Shown here one piece after another: positions 35,859 to 59,787 of a stretch of 64,000 nucleotides of DNA. How positions within the stretch are numbered: position 1 is the first letter of the stretch; each line of letters opens with the position of its first letter. Made by a program: the position numbers and the translations under genes. The notes under the pieces are model-generated. The model was given only the letters and a program-made list of their open reading frames with translations. It did not search any database and was not told the DNA's origin. This DNA is from Haloferax litoreum (GTDB lineage: Archaea; Halobacteriota; Halobacteria; Halobacteriales; Haloferacaceae), in NCBI RefSeq assembly GCF_009674605.1, contig NZ_WKJO01000001.1:620001-684000 (forward strand), read 5' to 3'.

Positions 35859-37319
35859 TCAGTCCCGACGGACGCGGCGACGGTACCACCACCCGGCGGC
35901 ACCGAGCGCAGCAGCACCGACGCCGATACCGAATCCCGGAACGTCGGTTCGTGACGAACCGTCAGATACCGCTGTCTCGGCCACTGGACTGCTCGAATCG
36001 GTCGGCGTCGGCGTGTTGACGAGGGATTCGGTCGTCGTCTCCGGACCGAGTGTCGGTGCGTTCTGTTGTTCGCCGGCGTGGTCCGGGAACGTGTAAAGTG
36101 CGCCAGAAACGTCGTCGAATCCCCAACTCGACGCGACGAAGACGCCCTCGTCGGCGAACGGGTAGGCGAACTGCGCGGTCCAGAAGTTGGTCCGTTCTGG
36201 GTCGCGCCACCACGCGAGTTCGACCGGGTCCGTCGGGTCCGAGACGTCGTGCCGTTTGACGCCGCCGCGGTACCACGAGGTGTAGAGTCTGCCGTCGTGG
36301 AAGTCGAAGTTGTGCGCGGTAGTCCAGACGCCGCTGACCGTCGGGTCGGGACTGGTCGGCGGGTCGATGGTCGACAGATGGGTCGGGTTCGCCGGGTCCG
36401 AGATGTCCCACAGTTCGACACCACTCGGGCCACCGACGAGGTCCGTCGTCTCGTCGTCGCGTTCGACTTCGACACCCCACGACTCGATGCCGATGCCGAG
36501 GAGGTCACCGGACTCGTCAGTCGCCGCAGAGTGGTGGTTGCCGGGCGGTGTTCGCCCTGCGACAGACCGCTCTCGGCCGGAGAGTTCTGCGAGAGCATCT
36601 GGGTCGCCCGGTTCGATAGCACCGATGACTGAGGGCGATTCGGGGTCGGTGAAATCGACAATCCACGTCCCGCCGTCCCACATCGAGATGTAGGCGATGC
36701 TGTCGCGCACAAACACGTCGTGGACGGCCCGAAGCGACGAGCGAACGTCCGCCCACCGGTCGTCCACCGAGACGAGCGACCAGCGCCCGAGTTCTGTCCC
36801 AGACTCCACGTCGAGGACGACGAGTGGGTTCTCGTCGCCGTCGTTGGCGGTCAAATACGCGCGGCCATCGGCGGCGAAGCAGTTGTGTATCGGATAGGTT
36901 GTCTCGTGGAAGGTGAGTTCGGTCGGCGCAGCGGGGTCCGACACGTCCACGACGAGAACGCCCGCAGGAGAACCCGGAAGCGGATTCGCCGGGCCGACGG
37001 CGAGGAGTGTGTCGCCATCGAGTTTCACGTCGTAGATGTTTCGGAAGGGACCGTCTTCGTGGTCCGAGAGGAGGCCACGTCGTTCGGCGAGGATTTCTGG
37101 GCGGTCCGGTGACGAGATATCGACGGTCGCGTACCCACTCGTCGCGGCGACGAACGCCGTCTGTCCGTCAGGAGAGAGGACTGCCTCCTTCGCCCCTTCG
37201 ATATCGACGCGACCGAGTGGTTCGAAGGGACCGGGATGCGCGACGGAGGTGCGAGATGTGCCGACGACACCGGCGAGTGCGGTGCCACCGACGACACGGA
37301 GGAACTGGCGACGGTCCAC
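35859..37319 (-). CDS. Tat-exported LVIVD-repeat surface protein with PGF-CTERM-like anchor
   Basis: 486 residues, GTG start at 37319 ([20 protein letters not shown]), a Tat signal with DRRQFLR. The mature part is a beta-propeller of LVIVD repeats, each with pieces such as [23 protein letters not shown] and HDVSDPTDP. After a Thr/Ser/Pro linker comes PGF at residues 461-463, a hydrophobic segment and the basic end YRRRVRRD, the layout of a PGF-CTERM signal processed by archaeosortase A. AAAAGTC near 37344-37350 supports the start. It is presumably a cell-surface binding protein of unknown ligand. Confidence 0.85.
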
Positions 37320-37389
37320 GTTCGTACTCGGTGGGGAGAGGTGAAAAGTCGGACGGCGTCGCTCACCAGCGAGTCGCGTGAGAACGAAA

Positions 37390-37632
37390 GTGACGCCGAA
37401 TGGGGAATTCGGGTGGGTGGGTGGTGGGAGATTCCCCATCGGCGTCGACGGACGAAGTCCGTCTGCCCGCCGAAGAGACTTCGGCGGGGTCGGACGGTCG
37501 GTAATGGTGGTGGGGGGGTACCGACCAAGTTCCCGTTCGTAGCTTCCGGTGGAACGCCCGTGCACCGTTCGAGTCGACGGGAACGGGACACGTCGACCGA
37601 CGCACCCAGTAAGTGGGCGCCGCCGGGTGCAC
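37390..37632 (-). ncRNA. Candidate structured non-coding RNA
   Basis: No good protein frame is seen between the LVIVD gene and the ROK gene. The segment holds six consecutive perfect or near-perfect stems: 37392-37406 with 37433-37446; 37447-37453 with 37457-37463 (7 bp, GAA loop); 37466-37475 with 37479-37488 (10 bp); 37496-37503 with 37519-37526 (8 bp); 37529-37536 with 37577-37584 (8 bp); 37602-37607 with 37625-37630 (6 bp). A TTATAA at 37656-37661 is 27 bases upstream of 37631 on the minus strand, just where the first stem begins. It does not show RNase P or SRP RNA signatures. Strand and ends are inferred. Confidence 0.4.
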
Positions 37633-37652
37633 GTCATCGGATTTTCTGAGGA

Positions 37653-37664
37653 CCATTATAAGAG
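37653..37664. promoter_or_regulatory. Palindromic TATA element in the 37.3-37.8 kb gap
   Basis: The sequence CCATTATAAGAG contains TTATAA, which reads the same on both strands. On the minus strand it would start a transcript near 37631, at the first stem of the candidate RNA. On the plus strand it would start near 37686 and run antisense into the 3' end of the ROK gene. The stretch 37665-37821 otherwise holds only the direct repeat described separately. Confidence 0.4.
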
Positions 37665-37765
37665 TACGCCGCCAAATATCACACGAGATAACCAAAGAAG
37701 GAGTCGAGAGTATTCCCGACGGCGTCTCCGAAACTCGAACTATCGGGTCAGTATCGTGTGTACGA

Positions 37766-37850
37766 ACAGTCGCGACCGGTCGCCGGTTCCAGAGCGCTGC
37801 AACCATCGAATCCTCGCGACCTTACAGTCGCGACCGGTCACCGGTTCCAG
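37766..37850. repeat. 27-base direct repeat at the 3' end of the ROK gene
   Basis: Copy one (37766-37792) and copy two (37824-37850) share 26 of 27 bases (ACAGTCGCGACCGGTC, then A or G, then CCGGTTCCAG). Starts are 58 bases apart. Copy two covers the last codons of the ROK gene plus one base of its stop codon; copy one lies beyond the gene. This looks like a small tandem duplication of the gene end. Confidence 0.75.
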
Positions 37851-38790
37851 CGGTCATCGCACTCGCGAGTGCGCCCTCGACGACGACTTCGTCGCCGAGT
37901 GTCGTGAGTTGAATCTCGGGGATGTTCGACATCACCATGTCGCTCATCTGCTCACGGATTGGGTCGAGAATCAACTCTGGATTGTTGAGTGCCACGGCAC
38001 CGCCGACGTAGATGATGAGTGGAGCGTACGCGTGGACGATGTTGGCGACACCCATCGCGTTCCAGTGTCCCACCTGGTCGACGACGTGGTCGGCGAACTC
38101 GTCGTCGCCGGCGTGTTCGAACACGTCGACCGCAGAAAAGTCGGGGTCGTCGATGGGGAGTGCGGTCTCGACTGGGTCTTCTTGGTGGAGTTCGCGTGCG
38201 TATTTCGGGATGTTGTTCCCCGAGCAGTACCCCTCCCAGTGGCCGTCGTGACCACACCCACAGGTCATGAACCCGTTCGGGTCGAGCGTCATGTGACCGA
38301 CTTCACCGGCGTTACCGTCCCACCCGGCGAGGACGTGCCCGTCCACACAGACGCCCGCGCCGACACCCGAGGAGATAGTGAGATAGACCATGTCGTCGGG
38401 GTTCCGGTCGGAGTGGAATCGTTCGCCGATGACGCCGGCGTTCGTGTCGTTGTGGAGGTACACGTTGTCCGTGTCCAAGAGGACAGAGAGTGGCCCAGTC
38501 AACGGAATTCGGTCGATGGTGTCCGGCAGGTTTGCCGGGTTCTCGACTGCGCCCTCGGCCAAATCGAGGGGACCAATCGCACCGATACCACACGCAACTG
38601 CGTCACTCGGGTCGATACCTGCTTCCGCACATGCCCGCCTGACGACGCCGAGAACCGCCTCGGTGACCGCGATACCGGTCGGCCCACGGGGCGTTCCATC
38701 ACGGGCCTGTCCGAGGATTTCTCCCTCGTCGTCGGCGACGACTGAGCGAACGTTCGTCGCCCCAAGGTCGACACCCACGTAGTACGCCAT
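37822..38790 (-). CDS. ROK-family sugar kinase
   Basis: 322 residues. The ATP-binding start is YYVGVDLGATNVRSVV, the second phosphate motif is SSGVGAGVCVDG, and the sugar-binding helices include NDTNAGVIGE and GEVGHMTLDPNG. The zinc motif of ROK kinases, usually C-x-C-G-x-x-G-C, here reads CGCGHDGHWE, with His in place of the last Cys. It may be a glucokinase; archaeal ROK glucokinases are of this size. TTAAGT near 38813-38818 (minus strand) supports the ATG at 38790 over 38799 or 38811. The stop codon touches a direct repeat. Confidence 0.85.
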   Translation of the reverse strand: MAYYVGVDLGATNVRSVVADDEGEILGQARDGTPRGPTGIAVTEAVLGVVRRACAEAGIDPSDAVACGIGAIGPLDLAEGAVENPANLPDTIDRIPLTGPLSVLLDTDNVYLHNDTNAGVIGERFHSDRNPDDMVYLTISSGVGAGVCVDGHVLAGWDGNAGEVGHMTLDPNGFMTCGCGHDGHWEGYCSGNNIPKYARELHQEDPVETALPIDDPDFSAVDVFEHAGDDEFADHVVDQVGHWNAMGVANIVHAYAPLIIYVGGAVALNNPELILDPIREQMSDMVMSNIPEIQLTTLGDEVVVEGALASAMTAGTGDRSRL

Positions 38791-38874
38791 TGTCACCATA
38801 GGGATGCGCACGCCACTTAACTAAGCGGGATTTCGCGTCGATTTACTCGCGAGACGGTAGCGATTCCCACGTCA

Positions 38875-59776: not shown

Positions 59777-59787
59777 GATGTGTGTCA

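Follow-up and report, generated by a model that had tools for sequence, protein, structure and literature searches.

A predicted structured RNA gene of the genus Haloferax with a CsmR-type operator at its promoter

The window analyzed here is a stretch of 64 kb (C1:620001-684000) from a Haloferax genome of 3.56 Mb. We predict that a segment of its minus strand (37380-37633) is a gene in its own right for a structured non-coding RNA, whose transcription we infer from sequence features. Upstream of this segment lies a gene for a ROK-family kinase (37822-38811, Pfam PF00480), and downstream one for a protein with LVIVD repeats and a twin-arginine-like start (35859-37319, Pfam PF08309), both on the minus strand. 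The kinase gene is the neighbor of the RNA at all 15 loci that were compared, the LVIVD gene at 13 of them. Of the remaining two, locus L013 ends at a contig edge, and in H. massiliensis (L007) no LVIVD gene is found within the fetched flank. The LVIVD gene is preceded by a promoter-like element (CGTCCGACTTTTC, 37343-37355, minus strand), which appears to be separate from the RNA and for which a similar box is present at the other loci that reach this position. The T-run of this element begins 28 bases before the GTG start codon at 37319. On the upstream side, a sequence of 26 bases, CAGTCGCGACCGGTCrCCGGTTCCAG, is directly repeated with a single mismatch (read by eye) at 37767-37792 and 37825-37850. 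One of the two copies overlaps the kinase gene at its 3' end, and the other lies between this gene and the promoter of the RNA.

When the 15 loci are aligned, a conserved block extends from the operator (see below) onward, and the RNA has a sharp start at GTGCACCCG in all of them. The transcript would begin about 25-29 bases after the TATA box. The predicted length is about 250 nt in this genome and about 200 nt in most other species (overall about 200-255 nt), with the ends placed according to these features. The interpretation as an RNA is based on covarying stems, an invariant core of 25 bases and loop indels that ignore the reading frame. In our judgement, it is close to certain that the segment is a real RNA gene.

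Unusually strong folding of this segment had been claimed by a sequence-only reading of the same DNA, and this is confirmed. The minus strand of 37390-37632 folds with -117.7 kcal/mol (z = -5.28), and none of 200 dinucleotide shuffles is as low; the plus strand folds less strongly (z = -2.84). When 265 stretches of 243 bases from the window are compared (264 on the minus strand and one on the plus strand, with 10 shuffles each), the segment has rank 1 by folding energy (z = -5.31). The runner-up is a minus-strand stretch starting at 59779 that holds a tRNA gene (z = -4.26).

The predicted structure (all coordinates on the minus strand) starts with helix P1 (37560-37632), formed by GUGCACC (37626-37632) with GGUGCAC (37560-37566), which closes the 5' domain and is invariant (100% paired). 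Two hairpins lie inside this domain, P2 (37601-37622, two pairs that change on both sides, 95.5% of cells paired) and P3 (37574-37596, one such pair, 97.6% paired), and both covary. Then follows hairpin P4 (37542-37557), which is part of an invariant core of 25 bases (GGTGCACGGGCGTTCCACCGGAAGC, 37542-37566) that is identical in 15 of 15 Haloferax genomes. The loop of P3 can serve as the 5' strand of a possible pseudoknot: a helix of eight pairs links UCCCGUUC in this loop (37581-37588) with GAACGGGA in the stretch after P4 (37531-37538), the whole feature spanning 37531-37588 with 99.1% of cells paired. Hairpin P5 (37495-37527) also covaries, with three double-sided pairs and 94.4% of cells paired. 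It bears a C-rich loop that reads CCCCACCACCA in most species and differs slightly from this in L003.

The structure ends with stem P6 (37392-37446), which has a (CCCA)n loop and is found at 13 of the 13 loci aligned over the full length, a count that leaves out L007 and L013. Its outer pairs, GACGCC/GGCGUC, are replaced by GACACC/GGUGUC in L015. P6 is followed by a pyrimidine-rich tail (ACUUUCGUUCUC, 37380-37391), which may be a terminator. The copy number of the C-rich repeat in the P6 loop varies among species. On the plus (template) strand, the P6 loop (37411-37429) reads GGGTGGGTGGGTGGTGGG, a potential DNA G-quadruplex. In H. massiliensis, the promoter, the operator and P1 to P5 are kept, while the sequence beyond P5 differs and no P6 is seen.

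Covariation was tested with six helices defined on 15 sequences (14 distinct ones) and with 500 shuffles. Across the six helices, 97.6% of 614 cells are paired. Changes on both sides of a pair occur in 19 cells, distributed over six pairs (shuffled mean 4.9), and the covariation score is 0.137 (shuffled 0.082). None of the 500 shuffles reaches the observed number of double-sided pairs, of double-sided cells or the covariation score. When the helices are slid as a control, 29-41% of cells are paired and scores are 0.010-0.059, although the control slid by -3 also has two double-sided pairs in six cells. One measure, "further pair types", does not rise above the shuffles, of which 481 of 500 score as high. 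There is no variation at all in P1 and P4, and in the P3-loop helix it amounts to one unpaired and two gapped cells. As there is no compensatory change in these three helices, they have no covariation support, and it is their invariance that speaks for them. In nested folds of 13 sequences with either P1 or the P3-loop helix imposed, the latter gave the lower energy in ten and P1 in three, with a gap of 0.6-4.2 kcal/mol. The two helices could possibly form an H-type pseudoknot or act as a two-state switch.

The sequence-only reading had proposed an unannotated minus-strand RNA with its own TATA box, and this is supported by the occurrence in 15 of 15 genomes, by covariation and by a TATA box at every locus. 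Compensatory base changes among Haloferax relatives, which it had suggested looking for, do exist, and P2, P3 and P5 are conserved as covarying stems across the 15 genomes. Other parts need revision. The perfect stem of 10 pairs was correctly located (37466-37488), but it is not part of the conserved structure. Together with a second perfect hairpin (37447-37463), it makes up an insertion between P5 and P6 (37447-37488) that is restricted to L001-L004, the four nearest species. The limits given for the segment, 37390-37632, also shift: the conserved core is 37488-37632, and the structure extends beyond 37390 to the tail at 37380-37391. What that reading had missed are the CsmR-type operator, the possible pseudoknot, the two C-rich loops and the lineage-specificity of the showiest stem.

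A BLASTN search with the intergenic stretch gave a match in 15 of 15 Haloferax genomes, and the core is present as a single copy in each. Model R1 was positive in 15 of 148 genomes of the family and in 13 of 392 genomes of the order, all of them from Haloferax. With up to three mismatches, the core was found in 15 of the 148 family genomes and in 16 of 391 genomes of the class. The sole foreign match in the class scan (G297, two mismatches) is on the opposite strand inside an ORF of 330 codons and scores 18.4 bits; it is probably a chance match. A laxer search covered 39 genomes, including 24 from outside Haloferax, and the best foreign E-value among the matches listed was 0.015. The four best foreign places among these lack the operator on both strands and differ from the 25-base core by nine mismatches or more. 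An exact 19-base scan of genome contigs returned 13 stretches, 12 from Haloferax and one from Microbacterium. The latter, a stretch of 62 bases that scores 18.9 bits with R1 and is devoid of TTATA, was likewise attributed to chance. Neither the plasmids nor the viral contigs searched contained a match. As far as seen, the RNA thus appears to be confined to the genus Haloferax, with no convincing relative outside.

The RNA does not correspond to any family that we compared. At the gathering cut-off, Rfam 15 reports only tRNA in the window. There is no family match at the locus, where the best weak match has 16.7 bits against a cut-off of 100. Archaeal RNase P RNA and SRP RNA are similar in size range and multi-helix fold, but neither matches here. 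As the sequence-only reading had concluded from missing signatures, the segment is not one of these RNAs, both of which are found above cut-off elsewhere in the same genome (RF00373 at C1:1178468-1178882 and RF01857 at C1:1348-1659). An HDV-like ribozyme was considered because P1 is at the 5' end with a possible pseudoknot after it. This was rejected: the 5' strand of the pseudoknot is within the P3 loop, the junction base after P4 varies, and Rfam has no such match. The (CCCA)n loop suggested the template of a telomerase-like or DRT-like reverse transcriptase, but no such gene is among the eight neighbors scanned.

The promoter region is conserved, too. The TATA box TTATAA (37656-37661, minus strand) is at the position previously given for it and, as had also been claimed, precedes the first stem: its first base is 29 bases before the first paired base, and the distance from the start of TTATA to GTGCACC is 29 bases in all 15 genomes. 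Fifteen bases upstream of TTATA, again with identical spacing in all 15, is the palindrome TATC-N6-GATA (37677-37690, minus strand), a predicted CsmR operator. Its six middle bases vary among the genomes. At the sequence level, the RNA has the features of an independent transcription unit, with its own TATA box and operator conserved at each of the 15 loci. The pattern TATC-N6-GATA-N13-19-TWTA has a single match in the window; 100 shuffles yielded none. A scan of the whole source genome for TATC-N6-GATA plus TATA gave 18 rows. They correspond to 16 distinct palindromes, since L081/L082 and L088/L089 are in each case one palindrome listed twice. No row came from the reversed pattern, a control that may be somewhat too low because TAG-like words are rare in such genomes.

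In the source genome, palindromes of this type with a TATA box precede many motility and signaling genes (L076-L093, L094/L095), and the spacing between palindrome and TATA box at the motility genes is similar to that at the RNA. Behind one palindrome is a gene for CheY (NF041367, above cut-off), and behind another one for an ArlD/E-type protein (PF04659). Others precede genes for transducers (L079, L083 and L090; PF00015 or HAMP), a Cache-domain sensor (L076), two KaiC-like ATPases (L084, L091) and a response-regulator/GAF protein (L085). The palindrome at L081 is about 55 bases before rdfA (PF21811), where the TATA of the pattern points the opposite way; the gene next after rdfA is SMC-related (NF045487, below cut-off, a fragment that is cut off). 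At L087, the palindrome precedes a gene for a protein of 211 residues (L087:806-1438, minus strand) without a Pfam or NCBIfam family, which is a candidate for a new gene of the motility regulon. Four of the 16 palindromes have no assigned gene (L077, L080, L086 and L088/L089). The last of these (C1:2594911-2594924) is flanked by two TATA-like boxes, one to each side, and neither flank has an assigned gene. One further palindrome, which has no correctly placed TWTA, is located before two archaellin-like ORFs, of which the second was tested (PF01917).

The palindrome had been spotted before the corresponding motif was found in the literature. CsmR is an Lrp-like regulator of motility and cell shape in H. 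volcanii. According to the available part of its description (PMC13286277, PLoS Genet 2026), ChIP-seq identified the motif TATCA(N4)TGATA in 50 of 65 peaks, close to a TATA box, with peaks at archaellum and chemotaxis promoters. Upon csmR deletion, transcripts of rdfA, sph3 and archaellum genes rise, and motility is nevertheless abolished. The operator of the RNA is a near match to this motif rather than a letter-for-letter one. The half-sites TATC and GATA and the distance N6 are present in 15 of 15 genomes, but at the fifth position all of them have T or C where the motif has A, and L004 has one further difference. The situation resembles the CsmR regulon as reported there in that TATC-N6-GATA is just upstream of a TATA box in the same genus, and in that the palindrome occurs at archaellum, chemotaxis, kaiC-like and rdfA genes of the source genome. 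It differs in that the operator of the RNA is one base off the consensus (two in L004) and is a predicted binding site. The available part of the paper, which refers to 65 genes with CsmR peaks, makes no mention of the RNA described here. Because the palindrome resembles the CsmR motif and the genes downstream of its other copies match the CsmR regulon, we consider it highly probable that the RNA gene belongs to this regulon.

Our preferred explanation is that this is a structured RNA gene of the CsmR regulon that acts in trans on motility or cell shape, and we assign it a probability of about 0.6. CsmR would control the RNA promoter by binding to the palindrome just upstream of BRE and TATA, so that the RNA would be made together with archaellum, chemotaxis and cell-shape genes. 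Its placement in a CsmR-type regulon is also the reason why we lean towards a role in the post-transcriptional regulation of motility or cell shape. In the RNA itself, a rigid core (P1, P4 and the P3-loop pseudoknot or switch helix) may carry P5 and P6, which would display their C-rich single-stranded loops. These loops are the main conserved unpaired parts of the molecule, and they might pair with G-rich stretches of mRNAs or be bound by a protein.

In acting in trans, the RNA would resemble small RNAs encoded in bacterial flagellar regulons. These are RNA genes under the control of a motility-gene regulator and are thought to feed back; an example reportedly exists in Campylobacter. The likeness is one of regulon logic, while the regulator, the domain of life and the structure differ and there is no homology.

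The mode of action is the weak part of this explanation. Duplexes of the C-rich loops with 21 start regions (from the regulon and from the archaellum/chemotaxis cluster) showed no preference over 45 control ORFs. Mean energies were -10.6 against -11.6 kcal/mol for P5 and -14.5 against -15.0 kcal/mol for P6, with gene starts that were partly guessed and controls that were mechanical ORFs of the window. Removing the two controls with an overlap to the RNA gene does not create a preference either (43 controls; P5 -11.3, P6 -14.7 kcal/mol). An 11-base complement, TGGGTGGGTGG, occurs twice in the source genome, once in the gene itself and once within an ORF, on the antisense strand.

Two other readings seem improbable to us, to a similar degree. 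The RNA might be a cis-acting, riboswitch-like leader of the LVIVD gene, in which the core senses while P6 and the pyrimidine tail are the terminator. It is indeed directly upstream of this gene in the same orientation at 13 of 15 loci, and a pyrimidine-rich tail follows P6. When forced, P1 and the alternative helix are at most 4.2 kcal/mol apart, as would be the case in a switch. However, the LVIVD gene has a promoter-like box of its own (CGTCCGAYTTTT, about 28 bases before its start), and H. massiliensis keeps the promoter and P1 to P5 without an LVIVD gene found beside them. These two points make the leader less likely. In addition, LVIVD is not an obvious motility gene, and the part of the literature available to us describes structured leaders as untypical of H. 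volcanii (PMC4983044).

Alternatively, the RNA might be a housekeeping or scaffold RNA of a ribonucleoprotein, with the C-rich loops as protein sites and an incidental co-expression with motility genes. The lack of a target-pairing signal in the duplex comparison would fit, as would the 25-base core, which is invariant in sequence beyond what pairing alone would require. On the other hand, no such RNA was found outside the genus, which would be odd for a housekeeping function, and the operator ties the RNA to an optional program.

Very unlikely is a small leaderless protein translated from the GTG with which the predicted transcript begins in all 15 genomes. A similar frame of 31 codons exists in eight of the 15, but loop indels of one or two bases shift the frame between clades, so that the products differ in length and sequence. 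There is no conserved open reading frame from this GTG among the 15 genomes, and the covariation fits an RNA structure. That the stems arose by chance in GC-rich intergenic DNA, which folds strongly in general and does so here on the plus strand too, if more weakly, is refuted by the covariation and conservation tests, given rank 1 of 265 and a core, TATA box and operator conserved at 15 of 15 loci.

To our knowledge, only few intergenic RNAs of archaea have been assigned to a regulatory circuit, and we are not aware of an assigned function for most intergenic sRNAs of H. volcanii. Here, sequence alone places a genus-wide structured RNA into a defined regulon, and the genus is well amenable to genetics. 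We also speculate, at rather low odds, that the RNA is the missing post-transcriptional arm of the CsmR motility switch; in that case, it would represent a new class of archaeal regulatory RNA, either pseudoknotted or bistable. If it is a CsmR target and rises with the others, it could block the translation or assembly of archaella via its C-rich loops or a bound protein. This would explain why csmR deletion, as reported in the available part of PMC13286277, leads to more archaellum transcript but no swimming, and the RNA offers a direct test of this paradox.

In the literature searched, no report is identifiable as the RNA described here, although supplementary tables may list it. None of the published sRNAs of H. 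volcanii or H. mediterranei could be linked to the locus by coordinates or neighbor names. Hundreds of intergenic sRNAs have been reported for H. volcanii (PMC4983044 and PMC3956466, in their available parts), and the H. volcanii ortholog may already be listed as a transcript. HVO_2213s (161 nt, present in 18 other genomes) was considered as a published counterpart. A search of the literature with 12-mers from the core had no match, and the available parts of the papers covered, which include PMC12482152, PMC5852579, PMC5892119, PMC10927574 and PMC12542753, do not describe a structured family with its regulatory context.

Two characterized RNAs invite a closer comparison, as far as they are described in the available parts of the respective papers. 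sRNA63 and other intergenic sRNAs of H. volcanii (PMC3956466) are similar in their intergenic location, and many are about 100-200 nt long. Deletion of sRNA63 raises archaellin transcripts and swarming. However, sRNA63 is encoded on pHV3 and has no homologs in other haloarchaea (Table 5 of that paper), whereas the RNA reported here is genus-wide and, in the source genome, located on the main contig. hvo_1211s (PMC13286277) is likewise a Haloferax RNA in the network of motility and cell shape. It has about 420 nt, overlaps cirA, to which it is complementary, and is under the control of RosR. In contrast, the RNA described here lies between two genes, is predicted to be strongly structured and is preceded by an operator of the CsmR type.
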